Shown one piece after another: positions 1 through 21,520 of a stretch of DNA of 22,652 bases. The notes below the pieces were generated by a model that saw nothing but the letters and a program-made list of their open reading frames with translations, searched no databases and was not told the DNA's origin. Within the stretch, counting starts at the first letter, position 1, and every line of letters begins with the position of its first letter. This stretch comes from a virus. The translations under genes were made by a program, and so were the position numbers. The stretch spans positions 1 through 22,652 of the IMG/VR virus record IMGVR_UViG_3300042475_002707. The stretch is one strand, 5' to 3'.

Positions 1-575
1 TTATGACGTTCTTCAACGGTAATCGCTCCCAGAATGTCGTAGAAGTAAGGAGCTTGAATTGCAAGCTGACCTTGTAGGTATGGACGATAACGACCATCTT
101 TATCAAGACGAGCCATTGCAGTCAATACAACCGCTTCTAACGGATTTGATGGATGCATTGTTAAGTCACGGAGGTCTCGTAAAAGACCGCCCATATGACG
201 AAGCAACTCTCCCCATTGCTGCTGTGTCATTTGATTAACACCAGCAATGTTTTCCAAGCACTTCACTTGAAGCTCAGATACAGAGTCAATAATAAGACTC
301 TTGAAATGATGCTTACCAAGTTGAAGCCATTGGTATGTTTTTAGAACAGTATCGTAATCACGAACTGTGACTACAACAGTGTCCCATGTTCCATCTGCTA
401 GAGGTGGTTCCTCACGCAGTGGGTCCCAATACTTGACGACGATAGGCAAAAATCTGTGACCGCCTTCTACGTCAAGCATGAGTCGTGGGTAAGGTGCGGT
501 AACAGCAAGACTTGATTTACCAACCTTGCTCTCTCCATACACCATTACAGTAAGAGAGCGTTGAATTTCGCTCAT
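1..575 (-). CDS. RecA-fold (Sak4/AAA_24-like) phage ATPase, partial at C-terminus
   Basis: This frame opens with ATG at 575 and stays open to the left edge, so only the first 191 residues are present and the C-terminus is missing. The protein begins MSEIQRSLTVMVYGESKVGKSS. GESKVGKSS (about residues 14-22) is a P-loop, and the hydrophobic strand ending in LIIDS (about residue 97) is a good Walker B. This arrangement fits the phage RecA-like NTPases (Sak4/AAA_24 group) used in phage recombination and replication as ssDNA-associated ATPases. The ATG lies two bases after the stop of the upstream Cas4-like nuclease gene, with AAAGGAAG in that gene's tail as a ribosome-binding site, so translation is probably coupled. 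The family assignment rests on the P-loop and context. A different RecA-fold ATPase remains possible. Confidence 0.72.
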   Translation of the reverse strand, partial: MSEIQRSLTVMVYGESKVGKSSLAVTAPYPRLMLDVEGGHRFLPIVVKYWDPLREEPPLADGTWDTVVVTVRDYDTVLKTYQWLQLGKHHFKSLIIDSVSELQVKCLENIAGVNQMTQQQWGELLRHMGGLLRDLRDLTMHPSNPLEAVVLTAMARLDKDGRYRPYLQGQLAIQAPYFYDILGAITVEERH

Positions 576-577
576 CG

Positions 578-1507
578 TCACTCGCTTCCTTTTTTGTCAG
601 TTGTATCGTAATAAGCATATGGGTCTGCGACCTCATATGCATCGCTAATTGCTTGTTCGGCGGCGCTTCCGTCGTCAAACATTGGGCAAATAGCGAAGAA
701 TTGGCATTTCCATTTGCAATCACGAGTTGGTCGTGGATATGCAACATATGTATGTTCTGCTCCTGTATCAAGAGCTTTACGAACATTCATAAGATCAGCG
801 ATGGTTCCGTGGATTCGATTCCAAAAAGAACGCATTGTAAAAATGTTATGGCGAATTTCTACTTGATCGTAGAAAGGTGGACGAGCATTTGCTGTGCGCT
901 TTACTTTCTTTAGCATTGTAAAAATGCCACCTTCAGAACGCTCTGCCTCATCAGCCTTAGTTGATTCAAGAAGCATATATGTCATTACTTGCTCATTCAT
1001 ATGAGCTAAGTTTGCAAAGTCACTAAGAGAGCCACCTACTGTTTTAAAGTCACGAAACATACGAACACCATCGCCTTTGCGACGAACTCGCATATCAAGC
1101 TTTCCCTGTAGCTCAACTTCTCCATTAAACAGTGGAGCAATAATTGTTTCTTCTGTAGAAATCATTTCAAGTTCTGCATCAATTCCATTTTCTTCAACCC
1201 ACTGCTCATAGCCTTCAAGCATGATGCGACCCATCTCTGCTTCTTGCTCTAATTGATAAGTGTCTTGAAAATCAACAAGAAGTAGTTGACGATCTGTCTC
1301 AACTAAGTCTGCGTGTGCTTGAATAAGTGGAAGACCTTGAGCGTAGTGAGCATCGAGTGCTGCGTGGATACGACTACCAAAAGCTAATGCGCCAGTCATA
1401 TCTCTGTACTTTGGTTGCAAACGGCGGTAATACGCAAGCCACCATTTACGGCGACAATCTTTAAATGTTTGTAGTTCAGAATTTGAAAGTCTTACTACAT
1501 CGCTCAT
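578..1507 (-). CDS. Cas4/RecB-like PD-(D/E)XK exonuclease with predicted Fe-S cluster
   Basis: The 309-aa protein has the full set of Cas4/AddB-type nuclease features. An N-terminal cysteine (C18, in FKDCRRKWW) is followed by GSRIHAALD with H48, then LQGKLD with D138, RDFKTVGG with D153 and K155 (the D/ExK motif), and a QxxxY helix near Q173-Y177. A C-terminal cysteine trio, C264, C268 and C274 (CKWKCQFFAIC), completes the set. In this family C18 plus the C-terminal trio bind a 4Fe-4S cluster, while H48/D138/D153/K155 bind the catalytic metal. The likely role is 5'-3' or ssDNA end resection in phage recombination and replication. The start ATG overlaps the stop of the SNF2 gene by ATGA, and the RecA-like ATPase follows two bases downstream, which suggests a resection and strand-exchange pair. 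It is not part of a CRISPR locus. Confidence 0.88.
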   Translation of the reverse strand: MSDVVRLSNSELQTFKDCRRKWWLAYYRRLQPKYRDMTGALAFGSRIHAALDAHYAQGLPLIQAHADLVETDRQLLLVDFQDTYQLEQEAEMGRIMLEGYEQWVEENGIDAELEMISTEETIIAPLFNGEVELQGKLDMRVRRKGDGVRMFRDFKTVGGSLSDFANLAHMNEQVMTYMLLESTKADEAERSEGGIFTMLKKVKRTANARPPFYDQVEIRHNIFTMRSFWNRIHGTIADLMNVRKALDTGAEHTYVAYPRPTRDCKWKCQFFAICPMFDDGSAAEQAISDAYEVADPYAYYDTTDKKGSE

Positions 1508-8126: not shown

Positions 8127-9609
8127 GCTCAAGCTCTTCTAATTGTCGTAACTCTTCTTTTAAAGAATCTATTTCTTTTTGCTGCTCTTTAACTAACTCT
8201 AAAACAAGAGTTGATAAAAGTCCGTAGTTAAGACTGTTAGGCTCTTTATTTTCATCATATCCAACAATTTCTTCAATGCCAGTCTCAAGAACCTCTTCAG
8301 CTATATAGCCATACATCCATTCCCGATTAATGCTGTCTTGTAAATGTCTTACTTGATTTTTATATTTATATCTTTTAAGTTTAAGATTTAGTATTTTCTT
8401 TACATCTTCAATTTCGTAATTTGAAATTTCTTTTTTTAGTTTTAATGTGGAGCTATTGAATTGGGTAGTTCCTGAAACTGTAACTGTGTGTGAATGCGCT
8501 CCAGTATTACCTCCCGAGTGGCCACTGTGGCCACCACCACCTACGCTAGAAGAAATAGAAACAGGGTGAGTGTGCTGAGCAACTCCAGTGGCACTAGCAT
8601 TAGAGTAACCGCCTTGACCATGAACATGGTTACCTATAGCAACTTGAGTTGCGCCAGGTCCAGTATTAACAAAAACAGTGGCTCCTGTTTTATTTAAAGG
8701 AGTATTAACTACTAATCCACTAGAAACAATTGATGCAAAAGCTGAACTAGCTATCTTTGCTGAAGTTATAGATCCATCTTGTATTTTAGTATTAGAAATA
8801 GCATTTGGTGCTATTTTACTTTCTGGAAGCTGTGGAAGTCTTGCAAGGTCTACAATTCCACTTATAAATTTAGAAGCATCTAAACCTGGAATACGAGCTG
8901 CACCAAAGGTACCACTTATAACTTTAGAAGCATCTAAGTTCGGAATTCTTGCAAGACTAAATATACCAGTTGTTATTTTAGAAGCATCTAAGCTTGGAAC
9001 TCTATCAGCTGTAATTGCTGGAATTCTTGCGACATCAAAGACGCCAGAAGTTATTTTGGAAGTATCTAAATTTGGAATGTTAGCGGTAGAAAGAGTTCCT
9101 GAAACTTTAGATGCAGATAGAGAACTAATTTGGCTATCTTGTACTTGTCCAATTAATTTTGAAGAAGACATTCCAGATATTTTGTCATCTGTTATACCGC
9201 CAGCAAGCTCTGAATTACCTACGGCACCTGCAGCTATAGAATCGGCATTTACAGCATCTGTAGCAATTTTTGAATTAATTACAGCATTATCTGCAAGAGC
9301 TATCGTTTCAACAGCACCAGAGGCAATTGAATCAGCATTTACTGAGTTAGTAGCAAGAAGCGAATTTGTGATGGAGTCTTGTTCTATTTGTGCAGTACCA
9401 ACTGCTGAGGCTGCAATAGATCGTCTTACAATGGCATTGTCGGCAACGATATTTTCTTCTACAGCACGAAGAGCTAAGTTTCGAGTCGATACAGCTTTAG
9501 AAGCAAGGCGAGTAGCAGATGGTCGTGTTTCTAGATATCTAACTCTTTTTTGAATATCTGTAAGATTTCCAGAAATAGTCTTTCTGCGGGATCTACGACG
9601 GGTTGCCAC
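8110..9609 (-). CDS. Tail fibre paralog 1 with S74-type self-cleaving chaperone
   Basis: The 499-aa trimeric fibre starts at GTG (9609) with AAGGAG seven bases upstream, two bases after the hub stop. Order: basic N-terminus (MATRRRSRRK); shaft repeats such as NADSIASGAV and NADSIAAGAV (residues about 55-135); repeats of the LDASKITTGIFSLARIP kind (about 175-265). A His-rich tip follows with H328/H330, H346/H348, H361/H364 and H372/H374. The C-terminal S74-like chaperone begins at S387 with K392 five residues on, and ends in a coiled coil (from about 466). In this family the C-terminal domain guides trimer folding and then cuts itself off before the Ser. The fibre is probably a host-receptor-binding protein attached to the tail tip. 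Antisense open frames here are by-products of the repeats. Confidence 0.87.
   Translation of the reverse strand: MATRRRSRRKTISGNLTDIQKRVRYLETRPSATRLASKAVSTRNLALRAVEENIVADNAIVRRSIAASAVGTAQIEQDSITNSLLATNSVNADSIASGAVETIALADNAVINSKIATDAVNADSIAAGAVGNSELAGGITDDKISGMSSSKLIGQVQDSQISSLSASKVSGTLSTANIPNLDTSKITSGVFDVARIPAITADRVPSLDASKITTGIFSLARIPNLDASKVISGTFGAARIPGLDASKFISGIVDLARLPQLPESKIAPNAISNTKIQDGSITSAKIASSAFASIVSSGLVVNTPLNKTGATVFVNTGPGATQVAIGNHVHGQGGYSNASATGVAQHTHPVSISSSVGGGGHSGHSGGNTGAHSHTVTVSGTTQFNSSTLKLKKEISNYEIEDVKKILNLKLKRYKYKNQVRHLQDSINREWMYGYIAEEVLETGIEEIVGYDENKEPNSLNYGLLSTLVLELVKEQQKEIDSLKEELRQLEELEHGNPS
8800..9504 (-). repeat. Fibre repeat region of paralog 1
   Basis: Residues about 36-270 of fibre 1 are built from short repeats. 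The first part has I/V-AD-NAV-type units and the second has 17-18-residue units ending ARIPxLDASK. The regular spacing produces a long open frame on the opposite strand (8678-9553) that has no independent support. Confidence 0.7.
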
Positions 9610-9611
9610 AG

Positions 9612-11675
9612 TTAGTCTCCTTCTATATTTCTAGTAAGACCAGCTTCTTCTCCAGCTCTATCTACTTTCCAATCTGTAATAAGTTCTAGATCTACAGTCT
9701 CTGGAAAAGCAGGATTGTCTGGAACTGAAACTTTATATGCTGCAATCTTTCTAACAATAATGTCATCTCTTGGTTCTTGATCATCTGCAAGACGAGCTAA
9801 AACAAATGGGTCGTCAATGATTAATGAGCACCAATCTCCTGGAGCGTAGCTTCCAATTACAGGAGTTAAAGATCCATTCACAGTTAATTTAAACTCTCCA
9901 ATAGGAGGCTTTGACTCGTAAAGATACTCTTTAGCGTATTCATATAAAACTTCTTCATCCCCTGTGTTATTTACTACCTCAACTAAATCTAGTAGAGGCC
10001 AGCTTCTACCAAAAGGATTATTAAGTAATGAAATATCAGCAGCAGCAGCGTATGGCTGACTAGCTGCATCGGATAAGTCAGAAATATTTCCTTCTACAAA
10101 GAAACGAGTTGCAGAATCTTCTGCACTCTCTTCTACTGTAAAAGTAGAAATGCTACCTGGATATTCAAATACAACTTGATTAAACCCAAGACGTTCTGCA
10201 TCTGTTAAATCTCTAGAGGTATCTTCTAAAGGGTTAGGGTTTTCAATATTAAGGAGAACAAAAGTTCTTGTAAATGATGCTGTAGTAAAATCATAGTCGC
10301 AATCAATTCGGTACTCGAAGCCGTTAATATCATTTGAGTAGTCCTCTAAAATCTCTCCAACGCTCTTAAGTTCGTAGCCTCGTAGATATTGAGTATCTTG
10401 ATAAAGATTGCTAGTTTCGTTTGTTCCTACAACTATTCCTATATCAGAGTTAGAAGAATACGGTCCATAAGTCCCATAGACTAATTTACTTCCTGTGGTC
10501 AGCAACCCTCCAGATACTGTAGTAGAGGGTATATTTCTAACGTTAGGTAGATCGTAACTAATAGTGTTAGAAGTAGTAGCTGTAATAGTAAAGTTTCCAT
10601 CAAAATTTTCATCTAATCTTTCACTAAAAAAAGAATCTACTCCAGACAAAGTTATTCTTTGACCAATGCCAACACCGTGAGGGATGTGAGTAGTAACTGT
10701 TGCTACGTTGTTAGTAAGAGCTTTATTTGTTATGTAAAAACTTCTTACACCCGGCAAGGTAGTTAAAGCTATATTTGCGCCTCTGTCCTCAAATACAACC
10801 GTTTTAGTGTCTGGAACCTCTACCACCGTGTGATACCCATTAAAGCTGGTATCTACTTCAACAAGCTCAAACTCTTGTCCAGGAACTAATTCGTGATCTT
10901 CTAAAGTTTTTAAAATTACTCTTCCCTCATCTCTTTTCTTAGAGACGACAGAGACTTCTATAGTATTACCAGGCTCTATTACATCATTAGCAAAAAAACC
11001 TGGACGTGCATCGGTAGTAACTGAAATGTCTGTAGCAACTTGAAAAAGAAGGTCTCTAACAAAATCGTAGGTGTCTATAAGTTTTCTTACAGCACCGCTA
11101 GTAATTAAAGTAGACCCAACGTTAGGTGCTGCTACAACATAGGTAAAGCTTGTAGGAGATGGTACAGATACAATTTTATGCGTTCCGTCTACGGAAGGGT
11201 TTGTAAAAGTTACTTTTACAAAGTTGTTTTGCTTAAATCCGTGAGCTTCTTCTGTAACGATTGTGGCTGTTCCATCTGTCACAGAAAAAGAAGAAACTCC
11301 AATAAACTCTGACCCATAAACAAGAGTTTGCCAGATGTGTCTATGATAAAAGTAGCTAATAAATTCAGAAGCATCAACAGAAAGAGTTTTGCTACTTTCA
11401 TTATAACTTCTTGCCCAAACTATTCCACCCCATACGCAAACATCATTACGCATAACATATAAGCCTGTACGACCAGGCATAGTTGACTCGTAAAGGTTTA
11501 ATTTACTAGTAGAAGCAATTACAGGAATAGTTCCAGAAAAAGATCCAGCTTTACGAAGCTGTCTTTCGTAGCTAACACCAGAAAAAGGAACTTCTGCTAA
11601 AACCTCATTAGAAACGAGGTCAGTTAAGAAATACCTATAATTTACATCTGTCAGTGTCGTGTCGATTGATGTCAT
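9612..11675 (-). CDS. Tail hub/minor tail protein, ReqiPepy6 Gp37-like, with inserted beta modules
   Basis: The 687-aa protein has the features of the siphovirus ReqiPepy6 Gp37-like (Tal/hub) family. These are the N-terminal strand-rich start with SYERQLRKAGSFSGTIP (35-51), GLYVMRNDVCVWGGIVW (71-87) and a C-terminal hub part with RGYELKSVGEILEDYSNDINGF (432-453). The tail ends with VDLELITDW. It should cap the distal end of the tube and connect to the fibres. Three copies of the AHGF module interrupt the fold: one at about 126-181, between IWQTLVY and DTYDFVRDLL, and two at about 246-377, before YGPYSSNSD. That accounts for a length above what I expect for the family. The ATG at 11675 follows the distal tail stop by 12 bases, with AAAGGAT as its ribosome-binding site. 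Confidence 0.82.
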   Translation of the reverse strand: MTSIDTTLTDVNYRYFLTDLVSNEVLAEVPFSGVSYERQLRKAGSFSGTIPVIASTSKLNLYESTMPGRTGLYVMRNDVCVWGGIVWARSYNESSKTLSVDASEFISYFYHRHIWQTLVYGSEFIGVSSFSVTDGTATIVTEEAHGFKQNNFVKVTFTNPSVDGTHKIVSVPSPTSFTYVVAAPNVGSTLITSGAVRKLIDTYDFVRDLLFQVATDISVTTDARPGFFANDVIEPGNTIEVSVVSKKRDEGRVILKTLEDHELVPGQEFELVEVDTSFNGYHTVVEVPDTKTVVFEDRGANIALTTLPGVRSFYITNKALTNNVATVTTHIPHGVGIGQRITLSGVDSFFSERLDENFDGNFTITATTSNTISYDLPNVRNIPSTTVSGGLLTTGSKLVYGTYGPYSSNSDIGIVVGTNETSNLYQDTQYLRGYELKSVGEILEDYSNDINGFEYRIDCDYDFTTASFTRTFVLLNIENPNPLEDTSRDLTDAERLGFNQVVFEYPGSISTFTVEESAEDSATRFFVEGNISDLSDAASQPYAAAADISLLNNPFGRSWPLLDLVEVVNNTGDEEVLYEYAKEYLYESKPPIGEFKLTVNGSLTPVIGSYAPGDWCSLIIDDPFVLARLADDQEPRDDIIVRKIAAYKVSVPDNPAFPETVDLELITDWKVDRAGEEAGLTRNIEGD
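10545..10940 (-). repeat. Two AHGF modules in the hub
   Basis: Residues about 246-298 (DHELVPGQEFELVEVDTSFN...) and 317-377 (NVATVTTHIPHG, then a short insertion before FDGNFTI) are two diverged copies of the module found in the distal tail protein. The first has lost the canonical HGF, while the second keeps PHG and the NF-T-I strand. Confidence 0.6.
11133..11300 (-). repeat. One AHGF module in the hub
   Basis: Residues about 126-181 contain GTATIVTEEAHGFKQNNFVK and the closing PSPTSFTYV. They match the module consensus and sit between two elements of the Gp37-like fold that are normally adjacent. Confidence 0.65.
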
Positions 11676-11687
11676 TTTTATCCTTTT

Positions 11688-14309
11688 TTAACCTAGCCAA
11701 CCAGACCTATAAAATACCTTAAGCAGTCCAGTACTTACAGAGTTTTTATCATCGGCAAACTCTATCTCATTATCTCCAGGTTGTAGAAAGAAAAAATCAG
11801 TAAGTACATCGAGCTTTGCTCTAGCACCTTCATAGTTGCCATTTAAAGCAACATCTCTTGTAAGAGTGTCTACCTCTAAAATGTCTGGGCCAAAGTCTAC
11901 TAGTGCACCACTTAAACCTGGAGTAAAAGGTATATTAGCTTTTTTAACTGCAATGCCAGAAGCCTCTACTTCACTTCCATCTCCATTAACAATATTTCCA
12001 TTAATATTTGCAGTTCCACTAGCATATGCAGCAAACGGAAGTCCCCCACTTACTCTAGCTTCGCCAACATCATTAGTGTTTGGAACAGATCTAGAACGTC
12101 TTACTAAAGCTCCTGAAATAGATGCAGTGCCACTAGGTGCTGCAGGGTCAATAGTTCCAGAGCTGGGAGTTGTATAGGTAAATGTGTTTGCCCCTGTAAC
12201 TGTTGCAATCCAAATTCCATTTAAAACAGCATCAAGACCATTTACTCTTACATACTGACCATTAACTAAATTATGAGAAACAGATGTAGTAATTGTTACA
12301 GTGTTTCCAGTCCTAGCCCTAATTGAAATAGGAGGTGTAACTATGCTCGCATCAATTGCAGGTTTTCCTGTGCCATCAAGACGGATTACGTTAAATTGTG
12401 GAGTATCTAAAACAGTATAAGTTCCATTATATGCAGCTCCCAAACCAGAAATTGTAACGCTTTCTCCAACAATAAAGCTATGAGTTCCACCAAAAATAAT
12501 ATCAAAAACACCAGCAGCTACTACAGCAGAAAAAGGTCTAATAGAAAGCAAAGTAACTTTTCCAGTTGTAACCCCAATAGGAGCTTCATTAGCCCCAACA
12601 GAAGCAAAAGCATACGTTGTGCTGCTTAAAACCGCAGTAACAGTAAATGTCCCATTGTATGAAGTGTTAGCTACATCTTCAATAACTATAGTATCTCCAA
12701 CGCTAGCTTGAATGCTTTCAGCTACTGTAATAGAAGCTTGATTTGAAGATCTAGAAGTTGTTGTTATAGAAGAAGAGTAAAGTCTAGGTACATCATAAGT
12801 AAAAGATGAAGTAGTTGGAAGAGATTTAATTATAAAAGTTCCATTAAATGGATTTTCAAAGTCAAGGGCAACTTGATTAGCAGTTCTTTCCATGCCAGAT
12901 ACAGCAACAACTTCGTTAACAGAAAATCCGTGTGTAGAACTCATTGTAATAGTGGCAACATCATTAGCCATTGAACGTGAAGAAATAGCTCTAGCATCTG
13001 TTCTTGTTTTAGAGTAACTAAAAGTCGTGGTTGATGGGATAGATATAATTCTAAAAGCTCCGTTGTAGTTTTGATCTAGTCCAGCAATAGTTACCTCTTC
13101 ACCTTCAACAAATCCATGTGCTTCGCTAGTGGTAAGAGTTGCAATGTTAGAAATTAAAACAGCTCCAGTTACAGTTCTAGATGTGCTTCTATCTTTTGCA
13201 AATGTAAAAGTTGTGGCTGTTGCACTAGTAATTGTGTAGCTACCACTAAAAACAGAATCTATGTCTTTTAAGAAAACAGTGTTACCGCCAACAAACCCGT
13301 GAGCTTCTTTTGTAAACACTGTAGCAACATTATTTACTAACTTTTTTGCTACAACAGTTTTTGTGATAGCTCTGTTTAAAGGAAAAAGACTGTATTTAAA
13401 TGTTGTAGATGTAGGAACTTCTGTAATAAAAAATTCGCCATTAAGGTCAGATTCTGCAAGACCGCTAATTTCTACTGTATCTCCTTGTAAAAGACCGTGA
13501 GCTGTTGTAGTAGTTAAAGTAACAATATCTTCCAAGGTATCTTCATTAAAATCTAACTGTTTATTAACAATTGAAGAAGTTAAACGTCCTCTAAGTCCTG
13601 AAACAATATAAAGCAGCTTGTCTGTAGTTCTGTTGTATATTCGAGCAGGTCCAATAATAGGACCAGAAATTTCAAAATTAACTGGAACTTCTACATTTCC
13701 AATATTAGTAATAGTTTCAATTCCTGTAGCACCAGTAGTTCTATTGACCGCTGGTATTTCAATTCTTTCATAGCCGTCTGGATCCGAGTCATTCCACGCA
13801 TACTTAATTGGGTCAGCTGCTTTTAGACCAATTGAAAAATCTGTTCTGCCTCGTGCAGTAGTTGTTTGAATGCTTGGACCACCACTTAGACGTACAAATG
13901 AAGAACGTTTGTTGTCAGATTCAATACCTGTTTTAAGCCAAGCACCACGATATACAAGGTTTGTTGCGTCAATGAGACGGTCACGAGCTGCTTCTACTAA
14001 AGATGGGTCAGGAGTTAAAAAGCTTCCACTAAGAGTCAAAATTCTTGCTTGGTAGCGACCTTTAATGTCGTAGGAACCGTCACCAAAACCACGAGGAATA
14101 TCTGGCATATCTGGCTCTGGATGTTGCCACCATCCATCAATTTCTGTAATTACCCAAACAACACCATACTCATCAATAGTGTTAAAAAGAAATTCTCCCA
14201 AGGCAATATCGCCTTGTAGCTTCATTCCAGTTAAATGCGGCTGTGGAAGAGGCGTTAAAGAACGATCTACAATGCTGTTTTCTTCTCTTTGATTAAATAC
14301 TTCAGCCAT
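11688..14309 (-). CDS. Distal tail protein (Dit-like) with seven tandem inserted modules
   Basis: The 873-aa protein has Dit/Sipho_tail-like ends. The N-terminus (1-240) includes the belt region IDGWWQHPEPDMPDIPRGFG and RYQARILTLSGSFLTPDPS (86-104). The C-terminus (about 808-873) has DILEVDTLTRDVALNG, FFFLQPGDNEIEF and VFYRSGWLG, the strands that close the family's galectin-like domain. Between YIVSGL (about 238) and DILEVDTL (about 809), which would normally flank a short turn, sits an insertion of some 560 residues. It holds seven modules (about 246-713) plus a Gly/Ala-rich linker. The protein should form the ring joining the tube to the hub. Its ATG overlaps the tape measure stop as TAATG. 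Confidence 0.82.
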   Translation of the reverse strand: MAEVFNQREENSIVDRSLTPLPQPHLTGMKLQGDIALGEFLFNTIDEYGVVWVITEIDGWWQHPEPDMPDIPRGFGDGSYDIKGRYQARILTLSGSFLTPDPSLVEAARDRLIDATNLVYRGAWLKTGIESDNKRSSFVRLSGGPSIQTTTARGRTDFSIGLKAADPIKYAWNDSDPDGYERIEIPAVNRTTGATGIETITNIGNVEVPVNFEISGPIIGPARIYNRTTDKLLYIVSGLRGRLTSSIVNKQLDFNEDTLEDIVTLTTTTAHGLLQGDTVEISGLAESDLNGEFFITEVPTSTTFKYSLFPLNRAITKTVVAKKLVNNVATVFTKEAHGFVGGNTVFLKDIDSVFSGSYTITSATATTFTFAKDRSTSRTVTGAVLISNIATLTTSEAHGFVEGEEVTIAGLDQNYNGAFRIISIPSTTTFSYSKTRTDARAISSRSMANDVATITMSSTHGFSVNEVVAVSGMERTANQVALDFENPFNGTFIIKSLPTTSSFTYDVPRLYSSSITTTSRSSNQASITVAESIQASVGDTIVIEDVANTSYNGTFTVTAVLSSTTYAFASVGANEAPIGVTTGKVTLLSIRPFSAVVAAGVFDIIFGGTHSFIVGESVTISGLGAAYNGTYTVLDTPQFNVIRLDGTGKPAIDASIVTPPISIRARTGNTVTITTSVSHNLVNGQYVRVNGLDAVLNGIWIATVTGANTFTYTTPSSGTIDPAAPSGTASISGALVRRSRSVPNTNDVGEARVSGGLPFAAYASGTANINGNIVNGDGSEVEASGIAVKKANIPFTPGLSGALVDFGPDILEVDTLTRDVALNGNYEGARAKLDVLTDFFFLQPGDNEIEFADDKNSVSTGLLKVFYRSGWLG
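12171..13574 (-). repeat. Array of seven AHGF beta modules in the distal tail protein
   Basis: Seven copies, with HGF-equivalent positions near residues 270, 336, 397, 459, 531, 609 and 678, have a period of 61-78 residues. The best are copy 2 (NNVATVFTKEAHGFVGG) and copy 3 (SNIATLTTSEAHGFVEGEE). Later copies drift to HSF, HNL or no His. Shared positions are an alternating strand ending in T, the HG turn, G-x-x-V, a Gly after a hydrophobic pair, NG, and a closing TTFxY strand. Confidence 0.8.
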
Positions 14310-17300
14310 TATGCAGCACCTTTACGAAGTTGGAAAGCAAGTTGACGGGAGACAAGAGAAGCAAGTTCACGTTCATCCATTCCTGGAGATGGATTAACTG
14401 TTATTTGAATTCCTCGTGACTCTCCAGCAATCATTTCAATCATTGCCTTATCACGTTTTGATAAACCATCTGGGTCAAGAGGCTCTACACGCTCTGGACG
14501 GCCAGCCTCTCCAATACGAGCAAGCATTCCTCCAGGTGTAGCTGGAACTATTCCACCTTCTGCCAGTGGAGTTACATATGGAAGTCTAAGAGTTGGACCT
14601 TCAAAAGCAGGAATAACAGTTTTACCAGCAATTTTAAGTCCTTCAAAACTTGGCAGTTTAAATGATAAATTATTCCATCTTTCAATTACCCAATTAAGAG
14701 CAGATTTAAAACTAGTTTTTATTCCTGCCCAAATATCACCAATTTTTAACTCACCTATTTTACCGAATATTTCTTTAACTTTATCGTAAAACCCTACTAC
14801 TTCGTTTTTAAATCCAATTAATCTATCTACCCATCTTTGAATAGTTCCTATAATCCCTAAAATAACGTCTTTAACTATGTTAATTGCACCAACAAGAATA
14901 AACTCAAGAAGAGGAACCAAAGTTACAGATAAAAAGTCTCCTATTTTTTCAAAGACACCAGAAACTCCACCAAGTGGCTCTAGAAGTTCATTCAAAGCTT
15001 CACTTATTTCGTCCCAAGCTTCTTTTAAAGCCTTTAGAACATTTTCAAACATATCTTTAAGAGCTTCTCTTAGTTTTTCACTATTCTTATATGCTAAGAT
15101 AAATACTCCTACAACTGCTGCAATTGCAATTCCTATAAGTACAAATTTTGCACTAAGAAAACCAACACCATAAGTTAGAAAAGCAACTTCTTGCTTTAAT
15201 CTTTTAACTCCAGGAATTGCACTAGGTAAAGCCATAATACCGTTCATAATTCCTATCATGGCACCTTTAAGTGAGTTTGCATAAAAAGTAAAAGCTATTT
15301 TAGATATATTTATTGCAGCAGTAAATGCAAGCAAACTACCACTAACCAACAAGAAAGCTTGTCCAAGCTCTGACCCAAGAACTGTATTTAAAACTTTTAA
15401 AATGCCAGTTAAAGTTTTAAAGAAAATATTTATAGATTCTGATTCTGTAACTATTAAAACAAATTTTGCAATTTCTTCTAAAAACTTGCCAAAAGATTCA
15501 AGTGCCCCACCTGGCTTAGATATTTCAAGACCTACTTCATTAAAAGTTCTAGTTACATTTTTTAAAGATTCAATAAAAGATAAATATCCTGGAGAAGCGG
15601 CTATTTGTAAAAACCCTAAAGCTATTAATCCAATAACTTCTAACACTCCTTGAGCCCCTATGGTTAAGTTTGTAAGGAATGGCGCAAGTTTTCCTTCTTC
15701 ATTTAATGCTTTAGTTGTTTTTTCCCAACTCTCTGTTACATCTATAAACCACTGTAAAAACGTATCTGCTGCTCCACCTGGAGCAACTGTTGCAGAAATA
15801 ATAGTTCCAAAAGCGCTAAAAGCATTTCCAAAACCTTCTCCTAGCTTTTTTACTATATCTGTAGCTGTCTTAAATATCTCATTAAGCTCGCCAGTTGCAT
15901 CTTTAAGCTCCACAGTTTTTCTAAAAGCTTCTGCTTTCTTTTCAATAAACTGGGAAAATTCTATTGTGTATGGGATAAAAGCAGCTTGAAGAGTTACAAA
16001 AGCTGAAGCAAGATCAATAAATGCTCCACCCAAAGCATCAAGAATAGGGGTAAAGGAATCAAATAAATCGTTTATTTCTTTTTGTTTTCTAGCTGATGTA
16101 AATACTTCTGCAAATTCAAGAGATAGCTCTCCAAGTTTTCCTGCAATTCTTACTAAAGCTCCTTCTAAGCTAGAAGGGGAGTTCGGGTTTAAGTATGTGT
16201 CGTAAAGAAGTTTTACTGCTTCTGTAAACTTAGGAAAAAATGCTTCTTGTAGTTTTTTACGAAGCTCTTCAAAGGCTTCTTTTAAACTAATAATATACTT
16301 AACAAAATCTTGAGCAGCTGGGGATAGTTTATCTAGAGCAGCCTTATACTCATCAAAACCAGATCCTTTAGCAGCCGCAGCTTGAGCCTTAATTGCAGCT
16401 TCAACTTCTCTATTAGCAAGCTCTAAAGCACGAAGATTTTGACGATCTACTTCTCCACCAGCTGTTACTGCGTCTTGTGCTTTTTTAAGATCTTCTAAAG
16501 CTTCTCTATAAGAAATAGTTGATCGTGCAGCATCTATTTGAGCATCGCTTTCTGCTTGTTTAGAGTCTGCAAGTTTTTCTTGTGCAGCAATTACTAATTT
16601 ATTGCCATCTACACCTTCACGATTTGCTTTAGCTGTTGATTTACGCAAGTCGTTGTTTTTATCAATTGCACGTCGAAGATTGAGATCTGCTTCAGCAAAT
16701 GCAAGTTCTGCCTCACGGCGAGCACGAGAATTTGGTGGAAGATCTTGAACACGTTGCAGAGAGTCACGAGCTTTTTCAAACTCAAGACGTGCTTTCTTTT
16801 CAGAAATAACTCCGCCTTCAAGTTCAAAACGAAGTTGCTGGATTGCTTCTTTAGCTTCTTCACGAGCTTCTGTAACTGCTTCAAGGGCTTTTTCAGTATT
16901 TCTAACAGCACCTTGATAAGCTCTTTCAGCTCTTTCTACTGCAATAGCTGCATCTGCAACTGCAATAGATGCATCTGATTCTGCTTCTACTGCATCTGCT
17001 TTTCTTTTATTGTTTTGACGAATTGTGTCATCTAAATTGTAATATGCATCTGATAATCTTAAATTTGCTTCAGTAAGTCTGTCTGCGTCTTGGGCAGCAT
17101 TTGATCCAATTTTAGCTCCAGCACTTATTGCTTCGCCTACTCCACCAAAAGCAGCTCTTAATACTCCAGCTCCAGCGGCAACAGCTAAAAATGCGCCAGA
17201 AAGTCCTAATAAAGCAGGAGTAGCAGCGGCTGTTATTGAAATTAAAACACCTAAACCACCTATTACTGAACCTAAAACTCCACCAAGAGCAGTTAAGGCT

Positions 17301-17572
17301 GTAACTACTATATAACCAGTTCTAGCGAGAGATAAAAATCTTTCTCTAGCCGTAGTAAACCTGTCTACATCAGCTTGAGATAAAGATTTACCAAATAAAT
17401 AACCTATATCTCCACTTGATTTACTTCTAAAACCTCTACTAAAACTTGCACCAGCGTCTGCACCAGCACGTTCTCCAACTCTATCAATACCATCAAATGC
17501 ACGTTGAATATCGTTTTTTACGCCAGTGGTGACGGCACGAACAATTACGGATGCTTCACCTACAACTGCCAT
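14309..17572 (-). CDS. Tail tape measure protein
   Basis: The 1087-aa protein is the longest gene in the tail block and follows the frameshifted chaperones, the diagnostic position for a tape measure. A hydrophobic stretch (about 85-145) precedes a long charged coiled coil rich in Ala, Glu, Lys and Arg (about 160-405). Further amphipathic helices follow, then a predicted membrane helix (about 809-830, FVLIGIAIAAVVGVFILAY) and the typical C-terminal end AEGGIVPATPGGMLARIGEAG (1004-1024). I see no lysozyme or peptidase domain. The protein sets tail length and is thought to be ejected into the cell envelope at infection. The ATG at 17572 has a near-perfect Shine-Dalgarno. Confidence 0.93.
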   Translation of the reverse strand: MAVVGEASVIVRAVTTGVKNDIQRAFDGIDRVGERAGADAGASFSRGFRSKSSGDIGYLFGKSLSQADVDRFTTARERFLSLARTGYIVVTALTALGGVLGSVIGGLGVLISITAAATPALLGLSGAFLAVAAGAGVLRAAFGGVGEAISAGAKIGSNAAQDADRLTEANLRLSDAYYNLDDTIRQNNKRKADAVEAESDASIAVADAAIAVERAERAYQGAVRNTEKALEAVTEAREEAKEAIQQLRFELEGGVISEKKARLEFEKARDSLQRVQDLPPNSRARREAELAFAEADLNLRRAIDKNNDLRKSTAKANREGVDGNKLVIAAQEKLADSKQAESDAQIDAARSTISYREALEDLKKAQDAVTAGGEVDRQNLRALELANREVEAAIKAQAAAAKGSGFDEYKAALDKLSPAAQDFVKYIISLKEAFEELRKKLQEAFFPKFTEAVKLLYDTYLNPNSPSSLEGALVRIAGKLGELSLEFAEVFTSARKQKEINDLFDSFTPILDALGGAFIDLASAFVTLQAAFIPYTIEFSQFIEKKAEAFRKTVELKDATGELNEIFKTATDIVKKLGEGFGNAFSAFGTIISATVAPGGAADTFLQWFIDVTESWEKTTKALNEEGKLAPFLTNLTIGAQGVLEVIGLIALGFLQIAASPGYLSFIESLKNVTRTFNEVGLEISKPGGALESFGKFLEEIAKFVLIVTESESINIFFKTLTGILKVLNTVLGSELGQAFLLVSGSLLAFTAAINISKIAFTFYANSLKGAMIGIMNGIMALPSAIPGVKRLKQEVAFLTYGVGFLSAKFVLIGIAIAAVVGVFILAYKNSEKLREALKDMFENVLKALKEAWDEISEALNELLEPLGGVSGVFEKIGDFLSVTLVPLLEFILVGAINIVKDVILGIIGTIQRWVDRLIGFKNEVVGFYDKVKEIFGKIGELKIGDIWAGIKTSFKSALNWVIERWNNLSFKLPSFEGLKIAGKTVIPAFEGPTLRLPYVTPLAEGGIVPATPGGMLARIGEAGRPERVEPLDPDGLSKRDKAMIEMIAGESRGIQITVNPSPGMDERELASLVSRQLAFQLRKGAA

Positions 17573-17576
17573 GCCA

Positions 17577-17585
17577 TCACCTCCT
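17577..17585 (-). promoter_or_regulatory. Strong ribosome-binding site of the tape measure gene
   Basis: The minus strand reads AGGAGGTGA, a full match to the anti-Shine-Dalgarno, ending four bases before the ATG at 17572. It overlaps the stop codon of the T chaperone frame, so the site is used independently of frameshifting. Confidence 0.85.
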
Positions 17586-18018
17586 AGCTACCTAATGGTG
17601 CATCTAATATGTCTCCGAAAGGATTTTCGGAGTCTGGATTGAAGTCCGTCGGTGGGACATAAGACTTCGTTGGTCCTTTTTCAGGATCAAAAACAGATAT
17701 ATCTTCCTCAAAACCATTTGCTGATGTTTGAGAATAAGTATTACTGTTAGATTTAAATCTATAATCTTTGTTGTATAGACTTTTATAGATAATGCCTCTA
17801 GCTTTATCACGAGCTTCTGCTTGTTCTGCACTCGATGTATTAAAATCGGTTTCCATATAGTAATGAAGGACATCTAACATGTCTGACATATCCATACTCT
17901 CCAATTTTAATCCGTTAGTTAAGGCTTTACCATTTACATAAGGCCAGAGGTCTACTGCCCACTCTGTGATTGCTCTGGCCCCGACGTAGGGCGGCCTGAA
18001 TACTGTTCTACTAGCCAA
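17584..18018 (-). CDS. Tail assembly chaperone T frame, made as GT fusion by -1 frameshift
   Basis: This frame overlaps the end of the G frame by 67 bases in the -1 register. Its only nominal start is a TTG without a good ribosome-binding site, so the natural product is the G-T fusion. With a slip at GGG (17979-17982) the fusion would be about 239 aa and read TSG-ARAITEW across the junction. The T part carries ITEWAVDLWPYVNG and a central helical region, and ends in an acidic Pro-rich tail. In lambda-type phages G and GT hold the tape measure before tube polymerisation. Its position between G and the tape measure supports the call. Confidence 0.82.
   Translation of the reverse strand: MASRTVFRPPYVGARAITEWAVDLWPYVNGKALTNGLKLESMDMSDMLDVLHYYMETDFNTSSAEQAEARDKARGIIYKSLYNKDYRFKSNSNTYSQTSANGFEEDISVFDPEKGPTKSYVPPTDFNPDSENPFGDILDAPLGS
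17942..17993 (-). promoter_or_regulatory. Candidate -1 frameshift signal with stem-loop
   Basis: Within the G/T overlap the minus strand has two slip candidates: C-CCT (17988-17991) and G-GGG (17979-17982). At both, a P-site tRNA could re-pair one base back. A perfect 8-bp inverted repeat, GGCCAGAG (17973-17980) with CTCTGGCC (17942-17949), loop 23 nt, lies at this point. The stem starts about seven bases after C-CCT, a typical stimulator spacing, but includes G-GGG itself. There is no classical X-XXY-YYZ heptamer. Confidence 0.6.
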
Positions 18019-18302
18019 GCGGTAATTTCGCCTAGTGTTTCTACAGTTACAATCTTGTCCTTATCATCAATAAGCTTTTCAAATCTTTCATAGCTTTCTG
18101 CTAGAAGAGCTCTTGAAAAGATATCTTTAATGGTATCTGCTGCATCTGTAGCGTTTCCACTACCAGCTTTTGCAACAAGACTTAAAAGCGCATTACCTTG
18201 TAGGTTTTTTACGCACTCGAAGTCTTCACCATGAAGTTTAAATGAGATTGGATCGGTGTTTTGAGCTCCACCATCTCCAAAATCTTTAAATCGTGTTGTC
18301 AT
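17952..18302 (-). CDS. Tail assembly chaperone G
   Basis: The 116-aa protein lies between the HK97-gp10-like gene and the tape measure. It begins MTTRFKDFGDGG, has a beta start (ISFKLHGEDFECV) and then helical regions with GNALLSLVAKAGSG and ITAWLVEQYSG, the usual layout of actinophage tail chaperones. AAGGA lies about six bases before the ATG. The reading frame ends with TAG at 17954-17952, and the second chaperone frame overlaps it in the -1 register. The unshifted product is G alone; a fraction of ribosomes should make the longer GT. Confidence 0.82.
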   Translation of the reverse strand: MTTRFKDFGDGGAQNTDPISFKLHGEDFECVKNLQGNALLSLVAKAGSGNATDAADTIKDIFSRALLAESYERFEKLIDDKDKIVTVETLGEITAWLVEQYSGRPTSGPEQSQSGQ

Positions 18303-18331
18303 CAGTTTTTCCTTTTCTGTCGTTGTGTTAA

Positions 18332-18715
18332 TTATATCTTGGCTTTAAGAGCATTACTTAAATAACGATTAGCTTTAGTTCCTGGATGCTGAACTGAATG
18401 TGCATAAACAATCTGTCCTCTTGAAACAAACCTAAGCATTTTTCCGCTTTTTGGGGTTATTACTCTAGGAGCAGTTCCTTCATGATGTGCTAGTGCGTAA
18501 TTTAAGGTTGACCCAACCCAGATACGTTGACCTCGTGGATCTCTCATGTGTCTCATATGGATAGAGCTACGAAGATTTCCAGTTCTTACACCTACCATTG
18601 CTCTGGCAGCTGTAATTATTTCTTTTCCTTTATTATTTAGAAACCGACCTACTTCTCCGTTAGGATTGTTAAGAAAGTTATCTAAAACTGTATCGTAAAA
18701 CTTAACTCTAGCCAT
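18332..18715 (-). CDS. HK97-gp10-like tail completion/connector protein
   Basis: The 127-aa basic protein has the family pattern: N-terminal helices, VGVRTGNLRSSI (about 42-53), YALAHHEGTAPRVITP (73-88), GKMLRF, and the C-terminal VQHPGTKANRYL. This family sits at the head-tail joint or tail completion complex in HK97-like phages. Its ATG overlaps the stop of the preceding terminator gene as TAATG, so the two are translated together. A short 29-bp gap separates it from chaperone G. Confidence 0.82.
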   Translation of the reverse strand: MARVKFYDTVLDNFLNNPNGEVGRFLNNKGKEIITAARAMVGVRTGNLRSSIHMRHMRDPRGQRIWVGSTLNYALAHHEGTAPRVITPKSGKMLRFVSRGQIVYAHSVQHPGTKANRYLSNALKAKI

Positions 18716-19221
18716 TATGGAACCGCCATAGTTATAGTCATACTTACTGTTTGAAACCCACCCTCAGGAGAGCTAGTTTCTACTGTTGCAATAACTCCAA
18801 GACCAAAGTTTGCTGGATCCCATTGATCCAACAGTCTTGAGCTATCCAACAGAATCCATGCGTCGTATGCAGAAATTTCTGAACCATCTTGAATTGCATC
18901 TCCAGATGGTGCTCTGCCATTTGTTCCTACTGTAGGAACTTCACGAGAAACTTGAACTAAAAGAGTTACTGAGCGAGGATCATTGCATCTGCGTGGAGAG
19001 GTTGCTTCATCTCCTGGAGATCCAATGTACATTTGCAACATAGAAACAACTACCTGCTCGCAATCAACAGCTGGTGTACCTAATGTCCAATAGCGACGAC
19101 CAGGAAGTGGCATCGTGTAAGAAGTATATGTATTTATTACAGCATTAAGAACGTTTTGCATAAGAACAGCTAAATTCTTAGCATCGTTAGATACTGTAGC
19201 TGGGTTCACATCTAGTCCCAT
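18715..19221 (-). CDS. Tail terminator-like protein
   Basis: The 168-aa protein resembles actinophage tail terminators. It has an N-terminal helix (NLAVLMQNVLNAVINTY) and VDCEQVVVSMLQMYIGSPGDE (53-73). Next are the PRSVTLLVQVSREVP strand, AYDAWILLDSSRLLDQ and a C-terminal pair of strands in ATVETSSPEGGFQTVSMTI. The family forms a hexameric ring that stops tube growth and joins the tail to the head. AGAGGA lies just before the ATG. The order adaptor, terminator, gp10-like, chaperones fits a siphovirus connector cassette. The call rests on pattern and position, not a strict motif. Confidence 0.7.
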   Translation of the reverse strand: MGLDVNPATVSNDAKNLAVLMQNVLNAVINTYTSYTMPLPGRRYWTLGTPAVDCEQVVVSMLQMYIGSPGDEATSPRRCNDPRSVTLLVQVSREVPTVGTNGRAPSGDAIQDGSEISAYDAWILLDSSRLLDQWDPANFGLGVIATVETSSPEGGFQTVSMTITMAVP

Positions 19222-19249
19222 ATGTCCTCTTGTCCTTTAGTTTCTTTAG

Positions 19250-20389
19250 TTATACGGTATAAATTGGAATTGTTCGTTCGCCTAATTGCATAATAATGTT
19301 ACTAGAAATTAGCGGAACAATCTCGTCGACAGCTGGATTTGCAAGACTTGGGCGAACAGCGTACATATCTAAAATTCCTGGGTCACGAGGACCTAGTACA
19401 TCTAATACATCTTTATAAGTTGTACTAATTCTTATTGTATTTTCTACTCTATCAACTGCAGCTGCGTTAGCAATTGTTGTAGTTGTGAGGTTATTAATGT
19501 CAGAAAAATCAATTTGTATGGTCCAGTTATTGTCAGAATCTAAGAAGTCTCCATTAATTTCTGAGAAATAATAAAGATTAGCTGCGCCATCGGCTGTTAC
19601 ATAGAGATCAAATGCGCTAAGTGGATAGAGAGGAGATGCTCCAGTAATACGACGAGCACGAGGTTGATCAGGGCTAAAGACACGAGCGCGGGCGCGAGCT
19701 TTGTCTGGGTTAGCTGTTTTAAGAAAAAGATCAATTGCATATATACCAGTGCGAAGTTCATCAATAAAATCTTGGCTGTCAAGAAGGGTATATGAAACAC
19801 CTTGACGAGAGATAGATGTAACTCGTTGTGGAAGAGCACAGGTGTCATCATTTTCATAAAGCTTTACAAGCTCTGTAGCAAGAACACGGGCAGCAGCACG
19901 ACCTGCAGTAGGCGCTGGTGTTCCGTAGGTATAAGTAACTTCTACTTGAGATGGTGACCAACCTGCTCCGGGTACTCCAAGAATTGTTGAGTGGTCAGAT
20001 AAATAATATTTGTTTGGCTCGATAATGTTTCCATCAAGATCACGAAGGGTATGCACTTTAATTACCTTGCGACCACGAAGACGTACACGAGAGTTTGCAG
20101 AGGTTCCATCACCTTGGAAGTCATCATCTGCGTAGCGATTAAATCCGCCAGATGCAATATTTACAATGTTGCCATCTACTAAAACTGGAGTGTAGGTAAG
20201 GCTTGATCCGCCTGAGCGAAGATAAGGATCGTAAGAAGATACATATCTCTCTGTTACTGTTGTTACACCGCTAAATTTACGGCCTGACATTCCCCAAAGA
20301 AGATAAGAGGCTGTTTTACAAGCTTCGTAGGCGTAATCAGAGTTAGTGTATGTACCTAACTCTTCTGGTGTTACCCAAAGATTACTCAC
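19250..20389 (-). CDS. Head-to-tail adaptor with extra C-terminal domain
   Basis: The 379-aa protein starts at GTG (20389) with GAGGTGAGA upstream. The first ~235 residues match actinophage head-tail adaptors: TPEELGTY at the start, ASYLLWGMSGRKFSG (27-41) and EVTYTYGTPAPTAGR. LPQRVTSISRQGVSYTLLDSQDF, LRTGIYAIDLFL and a basic segment ending PRARRITG follow. The adaptor sits under the portal and links it to the tail. The remaining ~140 residues (YPLSAFDLYVTADGAANLYYF...) form an extra beta-rich, acidic region that I do not recognise and that makes this protein long for an adaptor. The gene follows the tube gene across an 84-nt gap with a stem-loop. Confidence 0.78.
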   Translation of the reverse strand: MSNLWVTPEELGTYTNSDYAYEACKTASYLLWGMSGRKFSGVTTVTERYVSSYDPYLRSGGSSLTYTPVLVDGNIVNIASGGFNRYADDDFQGDGTSANSRVRLRGRKVIKVHTLRDLDGNIIEPNKYYLSDHSTILGVPGAGWSPSQVEVTYTYGTPAPTAGRAAARVLATELVKLYENDDTCALPQRVTSISRQGVSYTLLDSQDFIDELRTGIYAIDLFLKTANPDKARARARVFSPDQPRARRITGASPLYPLSAFDLYVTADGAANLYYFSEINGDFLDSDNNWTIQIDFSDINNLTTTTIANAAAVDRVENTIRISTTYKDVLDVLGPRDPGILDMYAVRPSLANPAVDEIVPLISSNIIMQLGERTIPIYTV

Positions 20390-20413
20390 ACTCTCACCTC
20401 GTCTCTAAGTAAG

Positions 20414-20463
20414 AAGGCGGGCACAAACCGTAGTTTAAAAACCATCGGCTCGATGCCCGCCTT
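20414..20463 (-). terminator. GC-rich stem-loop after the tail tube gene, possible terminator or processing site
   Basis: On the minus strand, AAGGCGGGCA and TGCCCGCCTT form a perfect 10-bp stem with a 30-nt loop, starting 10 bases after the tube gene stop. A smaller hairpin CATCG-AGC-CGATG, one base before a run of five T, overlaps its base. The two can compete, as in an attenuator. The outer stem is followed by TTCTTACTT, only moderately T-rich. Its place just after the highly expressed capsid and tube genes fits partial termination or mRNA processing. Confidence 0.55.
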
Positions 20464-20473
20464 TCCTAATGAA

Positions 20474-21520
20474 TTAAGCGGTTGGATCCTCGGTTGACGC
20501 AATAATGAAGTCAACTGGTAGATCCGCGTTGTATTCTTCGCTACCTGGAACGTTGAATGAAGATGTTGAGCCTTGTGAGTCAAAATCTGTCACTGCAAGG
20601 TATCCACGGTTACGAAGTACTGAACCAACTGGGCTAACTGCTGTAGATGCAACATCTGATGCAGTCTTTGCATAGCGGAAGGTTGTTGTGGTTGGAACTG
20701 CTGTGATTGTGTAAGTACCGTTAAATGTTGAATCAACGCCGCTTACAGTCACGCTCTGACCAACTTCAAACCCATGTGCAGCACCTGTTGTAAGCGTTGC
20801 AATGTTTGATGTTAAAGCTTTGTTTGAAACTGTCTTTGTTGAGTTATTAAACCAGCGGTAGAAGCCTTTTAGACCTGTAGGTGAGTATGAAGTACGAGCA
20901 TATGAGTATGAACGCTCAGTAGCTACTGGATACTCCCAACGGCCATCTAGACCTGAACCAAAGTTAACATTTCCAAGTCCATAACCTTCAAAGGTTGTGG
21001 CAAGCATTCCATTTTCAATTACGCGGTCTCCGCTTTGGCGAAGCTTTGCGTATGGGAATACCCAGTGGAAGTATGGGTTAGTTGAAGCACGGCGGCCATC
21101 TGCGACAGCAAAAGACCAGCATTCAAGAGCAACACCGTTGCCTGAAGGGTCATCGCCAACGGAAGGTGCGGCCCAACCGACTGACTTATTCTGTGGTGAT
21201 GCAAAAGAACCGAAGTTCTTACGAAGCAACAAACCGCCAGAGATTAGTTGTGAAAGTTCTGTATCTGGTTCGCAAATTGCGAGTTCCATTGTAATTCGCT
21301 TAAGTGTGTCAGGGGCTTTGTATGACACGCATACAGTGCCGTCTGCTGACTTCTCAACGATTTCGTCACCCTCTTCATATTCAGGGGTGAAAGATGTGCG
21401 GAGGAACGCCGAGGTTGTGTAGCTGTCTCCTGCTCCATTGAGCAAATTGCCAGCGGCGTCCAGTCTTGTGACTCGGATCGCCACACCTTGGACGCTAGCC
21501 GCATAGTCCTGAGTGGCCAT
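20474..21520 (-). CDS. Major tail (tube) protein with an inserted AHGF module
   Basis: The 348-aa protein begins MATQDYAASVQGVAIRVTRLD and has FTPEYEEGDEIVEK (44-57), LKRITMELAICEPD and HWVFPYAKLRQSG (152-164). The pattern matches actinophage major tail proteins, which stack as hexamers into the tube. Residues about 233-290 are a single AHGF module (ATLTTGAAHGFEVGQ, FNGTYTI, TTFRY). After it come the last strands (NRGYLAVTDFDSQG) of the tail protein. AAGGAGA lies upstream of the ATG. The gene stands between capsid genes and the head-tail adaptor rather than directly before the chaperones. A different beta-rich virion protein is a possible alternative. Confidence 0.75.
   Translation of the reverse strand: MATQDYAASVQGVAIRVTRLDAAGNLLNGAGDSYTTSAFLRTSFTPEYEEGDEIVEKSADGTVCVSYKAPDTLKRITMELAICEPDTELSQLISGGLLLRKNFGSFASPQNKSVGWAAPSVGDDPSGNGVALECWSFAVADGRRASTNPYFHWVFPYAKLRQSGDRVIENGMLATTFEGYGLGNVNFGSGLDGRWEYPVATERSYSYARTSYSPTGLKGFYRWFNNSTKTVSNKALTSNIATLTTGAAHGFEVGQSVTVSGVDSTFNGTYTITAVPTTTTFRYAKTASDVASTAVSPVGSVLRNRGYLAVTDFDSQGSTSSFNVPGSEEYNADLPVDFIIASTEDPTA
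20651..20824 (-). repeat. Single AHGF module in the tail tube protein
   Basis: Residues about 233-290 closely match module 3 of the distal tail protein: both read SNIATLTT..AHGF and close with TTTF.Y. Because the tube protein is present in many copies, this single module would be the most abundant one on the virion if it faces outward. Confidence 0.8.

Follow-up and report, generated by a model that had tools for sequence, protein, structure and literature searches.

Small predicted β-barrel modules shared by the tail tube, distal tail and hub proteins of a group of actinobacteriophages

The viral DNA analysed here, IMG/VR record IMGVR_UViG_3300042475_002707 (positions 1 to 22,652, the whole stretch of 22,652 nucleotides being denoted as the window), harbors a minus-strand tail cassette encoding a tail tube protein, a head-tail adaptor, a tape measure, a distal tail protein (Dit), a tail hub and two fibres with Peptidase_S74 domains. 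Three of these proteins contain copies of a module of about 60 residues, which is found once in the tube (residues 230–299), seven times in Dit (245–720) and three times in the hub (127–384), the outermost copies reaching about 10524–20833. The tube, or major tail protein (20474..21520, minus strand, 348 amino acids), matches phrog_792 (major tail protein, E-value 2.4e-21) and is 66–67% identical to the tubes of Microbacterium phages over almost its full length. Dit (11688..14309, minus strand, 873 amino acids) is recognised by Pfam SPP1_Dit (3.4e-9) and the hub, or minor tail protein (9612..11675, minus strand, 687 amino acids), by phrog_1885 (minor tail protein, 5.5e-33). Positions common to the copies are an alternating strand ending in TT, the motifs HG, G-x-x-V and NG, and a closing T-F-x-Y strand. 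An earlier note on this DNA, made from its letters alone, had described this pattern, and its copy number (1+7+3=11), shared positions and coordinates proved correct.

All modules lie on the minus strand. The single tube module T1 (residues 230–299, 20624..20833) is followed by a C-terminal tail common to relatives and scores 76.8 bits with a profile made from the seven Dit copies (the Dit-only profile), which was used against the tube and the hub. The Dit array starts with D1 (residues 245–319, 13353..13577), recognised by the Dit-only profile and by a structural match, and continues with D2 (320–382, 13164..13352; 80.1 bits with the Dit-only profile, to which it contributes itself, as for the following copies, and a predicted local distance difference test score (pLDDT) of 91–95 by block), D3 (383–443, 12981..13163; 91.8 bits), D4 (444–517, 12759..12980; 85.2 bits), which carries an 11-residue loop insertion in the alignment, D5 (518–583, 12561..12758; 65.3 bits), which also matches the E1 fragment 4p22 structurally, D6 (597–656, 12342..12521; 76.6 bits) and D7 (663–720, 12150..12323; 72.9 bits). 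Relatives with six modules have one copy fewer at the D7 place. The strand-rich segment following the array, Dit 721–808 (11886..12149, minus strand, eight predicted strands), was left out of the module count; its ratio of nonsynonymous to synonymous substitution rates (dN/dS) is 0.237, compared with 0.051–0.128 in the rest of Dit, and it is perhaps a degenerate barrel. The hub modules are H1 (residues 127–196, 11088..11297; pLDDT 69–91 by block), H2 (241–304, 10764..10955) and H3 (317–384, 10524..10727), with 29.3, 21.1 and 41.3 bits, respectively, against the Dit-only profile.

In a control with 500 shuffled sequences each, the same profile reached at most 8.4 bits for the tube and 9.2 bits for the hub (393 and 358 of these, respectively, were listed by HMMER). 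With 21–77 bits across proteins, the likeness of the modules is thus far above chance, and the search of a seven-copy Dit profile against the other two proteins, as proposed in the earlier note, finds the tube copy and all three hub copies above this background. Pairwise identities between the copies in the window range from 10 to 52%. Over 120 aligned modules, the histidine is conserved in 96%, the glycine of the NG motif in 97%, its asparagine in 51% and the glycine of the HG motif in 67%. Judged by sequence, the eleven copies are homologous; they would form a single family of small barrels of the endosialidase-barrel or E1-FCCH type. PHROG 9998, a family of unknown function, matches the tube, Dit and hub with E-values of 3.6e-5, 3.8e-22 and 2.7e-11; a scan of the three proteins against NCBIfam gave no useful match, and a PDB sequence search with the whole Dit and the whole tube as queries gave no useful relative.

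AlphaFold2 models were calculated for Dit from a 35-sequence alignment and for the hub from 19 sequences. The Dit model has a mean pLDDT of 86, with most module blocks at 90 or above. The hub model is poor overall (mean pLDDT 58), and the modules stand out as well-predicted islands with blocks of 68–91, except for 56 at residues 351–360. In both proteins the modules are predicted to be separate small beta domains, a typical one having about six strands. The listed structural matches cover H1 and H3 of the hub model and D1 and D5 of the Dit model, while the fold of H2, D2–D4, D6 and D7 is taken from sequence homology together with the models. The phi92 endosialidase (4hiz) tops the module matches, both for Dit (Z 10.3, root-mean-square deviation (rmsd) 2.1 Å, 83 residues) and for the hub (Z 9.4), and the barrel of the K1F endosialidase follows with Z 8.5–8.7 and 9.5; altogether the endosialidase barrels superpose with Z 8.5–10.3 and rmsd 2.0–2.3 Å for 76–83 residues. 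The FCCH domain of ubiquitin E1 is matched with Z 8.3–9.3 in Dit and 7.2–8.7 in the hub, the highest value belonging to D5 and the E1 fragment 4p22 (rmsd 2.6 Å, 77 residues, over 510..590).

At the sequence level, a wider profile of 36 modules (A7) reaches the phi92 endosialidase (4hiz) with an E-value of 1.4e-4, so that both predicted fold and detectable sequence similarity connect the modules to the endosialidase barrel. The 11-copy profile finds the FCCH domain of S. pombe Uba1 at E 0.047, a value that drops to 0.41 with the 36-module profile. The best PDB match of the 11-copy profile, ahead of Uba1, is 9gtr, a VgrG/Gp5-type protein (E 0.0079), and spans 23 positions. The TAL-effector matches of profile A7 (best E 0.0026) rest on a short HG motif and were discarded. 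Pfam E1_FCCH (PF16190) matches Dit with 32.5 bits, above the whole-protein cut-off of 29.5, and the tube and hub are not listed for this family. Applied to single modules, it matches 4 of 11 at E≤1 (best 0.0062), none passing the cut-off. A scan of the window record with E1_FCCH gave four places (three in Dit, one in the tube), again none above the cut-off; matches also appear in 4 of 14 control genomes, in one of them over the cut-off. Pfam End_beta_barrel weakly matches one of the eleven modules (E 0.07). The SH3-like FeoA family matches the hub below its cut-off of 23 (15.0 bits, E 0.027) and one module alone with E 0.0018; from its place in the hub match, this module is H2. The resemblance to FCCH suggested in the earlier note gains support from the Pfam match of Dit as a whole and from the modelled modules, which align structurally with the barrels of E1 FCCH and of endosialidases by a modest margin over other proteins, although single modules all stay below the Pfam cut-off. 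Since known Ig-like decorations occur at a similar place in tail tubes (PMC9022992), and since the tube shows a weak ChiW_Ig_like match (E 0.4), ordinary immunoglobulin-like (Ig-like) or FN3 tail domains have to be considered as well. This identity is very improbable, as the leading structural matches are endosialidase barrels and FCCH, and no Pfam Ig or FN3 profile matches the tube, Dit or hub above its cut-off.

The relationship of the modules to their host proteins is best seen in Dit, the model of which superposes on SPP1 Dit with Z 15.8 and rmsd 3.8 Å for 227 residues between 31 and 872. As this match is found on both sides of the array, residues ~240–808 constitute an insert in the C-terminal domain of an SPP1-like Dit. 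Homologues without modules are available for each of the three host proteins. In Actinomycetia phage DSL-LC01 the tube retains both flanks but no module, and the tubes of GodonK, Racecar and Forza end at 214–218 residues, likewise without a module; Arthrobacter phage Popper provides a module-free Dit and Streptomyces phage Raleigh a module-free hub. With the module profile nothing above 0 bits was found in the Dits of Popper and Raleigh or the tubes of GodonK and DSL-LC01, and no match is listed for the Raleigh hub. The latter closes up at the two sites occupied by H1 and by H2–H3 (29% identity, the joints being approximate); L155:3347-4420 was left out of the hub alignment, because it is not a hub homologue. 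The module-free homologues indicate that the modules are insertions, and their sites would be located past the core of the tube, within the Dit C-terminal domain and, for the hub, at two points of its first half. One tube of 291 amino acids (L018 644-1519) lacks about 58 core residues just ahead of the module, either by natural deletion or by an assembly error.

A different explanation would make each copy an integral part of its own parent fold, with convergence of these strands on one pattern, for which the shortness of the motif and the low identity between copies (10–52%) could be quoted. It is hardly credible in view of the profile scores, the separate predicted domains and the module-free homologues, of which the DSL-LC01 tube with its retained flanks is the one called for by this idea's own refutation. 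Neither of the outcomes named in the earlier note as speaking against a shared module, integral strands in the predicted Dit and hub structures or cross-protein scores at background level, was encountered.

The arrangement within Dit suggests in addition that the array grew inside its first member. In 67 of 69 complete Dits a module starts at the D1 place, no more than about 30 residues from where the N-terminal core match ends; in the other two it starts about 430–440 residues further on. Six Dits of 385 residues (L040, L093, L102, L110-L112) retain the copy at the D1 place only; an alignment of four of these places the segment following D1 on residues ~800–806 of the Dit in the window. Moreover, structural matches to the first Dit barrel span 241..808. 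Taken together, the last strand of D1 is probably located at residues ~800–806, beyond D2–D7, and D2–D7 would have grown within D1, separating its fifth strand from its sixth.

Relatives of the tube are common, as one scan found 518 stretches encoding them. Copies were counted by locus in complete proteins, with modules of at least 15 bits, over loci that partly share one contig and are therefore not independent genomes; a further 25 loci were left out. The tube carries one module in 102 of 106 loci and none in the other four. In Dit (n=69) the counts are one copy in 6, six in 25, seven in 36, and eight and ten in one each; the hub (n=36) has two copies in 1 locus, three in 29 and five in 3, while 8, 10 and 11 copies occur once each. 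For 28 loci the complete set of tube, Dit and hub could be given: (1,7,3) in fourteen, (1,6,3) in seven, (1,1,5) in three, and (0,1,2), (1,7,10), (1,10,11) and (1,7,8) once each. Among 2,696 open reading frames of at least 90 amino acids from 121 loci, to which these 25 do not belong, no module of at least 15 bits was found outside homologues of the tube, Dit and hub once the three Microbacterium loci are set aside.

Other arrangements and further carriers were noticed in several records. Microbacterium phage A3Wally (L119 16394-20317, 20338-22572, 22623-26366) has short repeats, many of them 36 residues apart, which are also present in its hub; in its Dit most of them lie after the C-terminal domain (858–911) and not before it, and another minor tail protein has five weaker matches of 13–27 bits. 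Outside this phage group, in Klebsiella and Yersinia phages, the module is present in two proteins of each fetched stretch (L151 3488-4348 and 7730-8162; L152 3467-4327 and 7713-8162), which are annotated as hypothetical or, in the Yersinia record, as 'endosialidase'. The very large gene of cyanophage S-RIM8 gp7 (L153 2100-10147) encodes a module at residues 967–1015 of the part read (43 bits). Arthrobacter phage Racecar, mentioned above for its module-free tube, has a minor tail gene of 12.8 kb (L121 17726-30526). The Dit of Bxb1, the best Foldseek match for Dit (E 7.5e-12) and one to which a preprint ascribes three CTE-like domains (PMC13252515), was rejected as a module carrier, its E-value with the module profile being just 0.93.

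A tree of 120 modules was calculated from 60 columns, many supports being weak. For nine related loci this tree places tube copies with tube copies and keeps most positions of Dit and of the hub together, with D5 as an exception. Correspondingly, among 94 copies of these loci the nearest neighbour is the same position in another genome for 87, another copy in the own genome for one and neither for six, and DNA repeats of at least 30 nucleotides between module regions amount to a single pair of 33 nucleotides at 82%. The nearest neighbours by position and the absence of long repeats indicate that the dispersal is mostly old, and, by sequence, inheritance is mainly vertical. The modules would accordingly have entered loops of three unrelated actinobacteriophage tail proteins mostly long ago. 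It was proposed in the earlier note that the domain spreads within the tail cassette. In view of the nearest neighbours this proposal needs correction; copy numbers in Dit and hub do depend on the lineage. That a mobile module is still being exchanged among tube, Dit and hub by recombination we consider unlikely: the varying copy numbers would fit, as would two groups that cross protein boundaries, namely H3 and H5 of the L112 hub with Dit D6 (support 0.92) and the H3 copies of three Microbacterium phages with D1 of DSL-LC01 (0.93), but position-wise neighbours and the sole, imperfect DNA repeat argue against it. Continuing spread via duplication was dismissed on the same two grounds. The two cross-protein groups possibly reflect occasional later exchange.

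For the function of the modules, their number and placement on the particle are relevant. Tail length corresponds to about 1.5 Å per tape-measure residue, and a tail contains six Dit and three hub subunits. For the tape measure of the window (14309-17572, minus strand, 1,087 residues) a tail of ~160 nm can be estimated, with some 40 rings and hence ~240 copies of the tube protein, as compared with roughly 42 modules on Dit and 9 on the hub. Six Dit and three hub subunits are also given for mycobacteriophages (PMC13252515). The modules probably stand out from the exterior of the tail and its tip, where they would act as accessory adsorption elements toward the host envelope. We prefer, at somewhat better than even odds, the reading as a surface decoration that adds many weak envelope contacts; in other siphophages such a role has been proposed for Ig-like domains and demonstrated for certain carbohydrate-binding modules (CBMs). 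This reading is in line with module copy numbers that vary among lineages and with modules that are less conserved than the cores: from nine, eight and seven close relatives of tube, Dit and hub, dN/dS is 0.155 in the module versus 0.104 in the core of the tube, 0.10–0.13 versus 0.05–0.09 in Dit and 0.09–0.14 versus 0.03–0.07 in the hub. Contact with the envelope or with glycans is suggested by analogy only. The barrel of the K1F endosialidase is described as providing one of the enzyme's three sites for polysialic acid and as a hotspot of host discrimination (PMC12632334); Ig-like domains have been proposed to help adsorption, and some phages infect less well without the tube Ig-like domain (PMC9022992); two CBMs of 936 phages, one on the tail and one on the neck, bound host cells (PMC6669499). 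Of the earlier suggestion that the module decorates the tail surface or binds host glycans, decoration thus appears likely, while glycan binding would follow by analogy with the K1F barrel.

Several observations weigh against this assignment. With dN/dS of 0.09–0.16, each of the module regions evolves under purifying selection, no positive selection is seen among the relatives of tube, Dit and hub, and the tube C-terminal tail (0.264) as well as Dit 721–808 evolve faster than the modules. No common sugar-binding patch is visible in the modules; the conserved H, G, T and F/Y look structural, and the aromatics usual in sugar binding are scarce. The K1F barrel itself is reported to be largely permissive to mutation (PMC12632334). 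As regards the underlying fold comparison, other proteins that superpose on modules score up to Z 7.7 (9jlf), with riboflavin synthase at 7.5, which leaves a modest margin, and the Foldseek E-values of the endosialidase and E1 matches with the whole Dit are just 0.03–0.05.

Some of these points equally suit a purely mechanical role. The modules would then serve as structural spacers or stiffeners, fixing how far the Dit arm extends or bracing neighbouring subunits, without direct host contact. Purifying selection in every module region and the composition (26% Ser/Thr, 0.1% Trp, 8.1% aromatics), along with conserved residues of structural appearance, are compatible with it, as are the single tube copy in 102 of the 106 complete-tube loci and the rod-like appearance of the Dit model, in which a long strand often bridges successive modules (377–386, 439–448, 512–521). 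On the other hand, copy number varies widely, DSL-LC01 does without a tube module and has one Dit module only, and polysialic acid binding is described for the related barrel of K1F (PMC12632334). We therefore regard the spacer or stiffener role as a serious though clearly less probable explanation than accessory host contact.

The remaining genes of the cassette are the head-tail adaptor (19250-20389, minus strand, 379 amino acids), for which the phrog_783 match (254 positions) stops at residue 247 and leaves a C-terminal extension of ~130 residues, and two adjoining, similar tail-fibre genes (6561-8132 and 8110-9609, minus strand), both of which carry a Peptidase_S74 (endosialidase chaperone) domain at their end.

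Extra beta domains on tail proteins are an already-known kind of decoration. What seems new is a barrel fold that is found at once on tube, Dit and hub, with a tandem Dit array of up to seven copies, in a common group of actinophages. The literature searches made on FCCH returned no title or abstract describing the module in phage tails, and two of the articles listed treat FCCH as part of E1 (PMC12355090, PMC11354881), where it contacts ubiquitin (PMC12355090). The dispersal of one small barrel fold over tube, Dit and hub links endosialidase barrels, tail decorations and E1 FCCH by fold, a connection that could assist in naming parts of 'virion structural proteins' of unknown function, and the natural module-free relatives make the role of the modules testable. 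As a speculation to which we attach little probability, phages could constitute a reservoir of such barrels (actinophage tails, cyanophage gp7, Klebsiella and Yersinia phage proteins, endosialidase tailspikes) from which the E1 FCCH half-domain was captured, the module being a general-purpose grip along tube, tip ring and hub.

Compared with known systems, the modules resemble evolved Dits, in which extra domains occupy loops of the C-terminal domain (PMC7291167), and the 936 lactococcal phages, in which CBMs are found on the neck, the major tail protein and Dit, all three being decorated in only 1 of 113 phages (PMC6669499). In both cases extra domains likewise sit in Dit C-terminal loops and on the tube; these are of CBM or BppA type, however, whereas another fold occurs here on tube, Dit and hub. 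Ig-like domains, known from five classes of virion protein including tube, baseplate, fibre and capsid (Fraser et al. 2006, cited in PMC9022992) and described as dispensable for tube formation and infection, with unclear function (PMC9022992), are likewise one fold class distributed over several structural proteins, but differ in fold and from the tandem arrangement of the modules in Dit. E1 FCCH (PF16190) shares the fold and, in the alignment, the HG and NG motifs. The endosialidase beta-barrel of K1F endoNF and phi92 is like the modules in predicted fold, in sequence similarity (phi92) and in phage origin; unlike the modules, which are repeated many times over tube, Dit and hub without an enzyme, it is part of a capsule-degrading tailspike.

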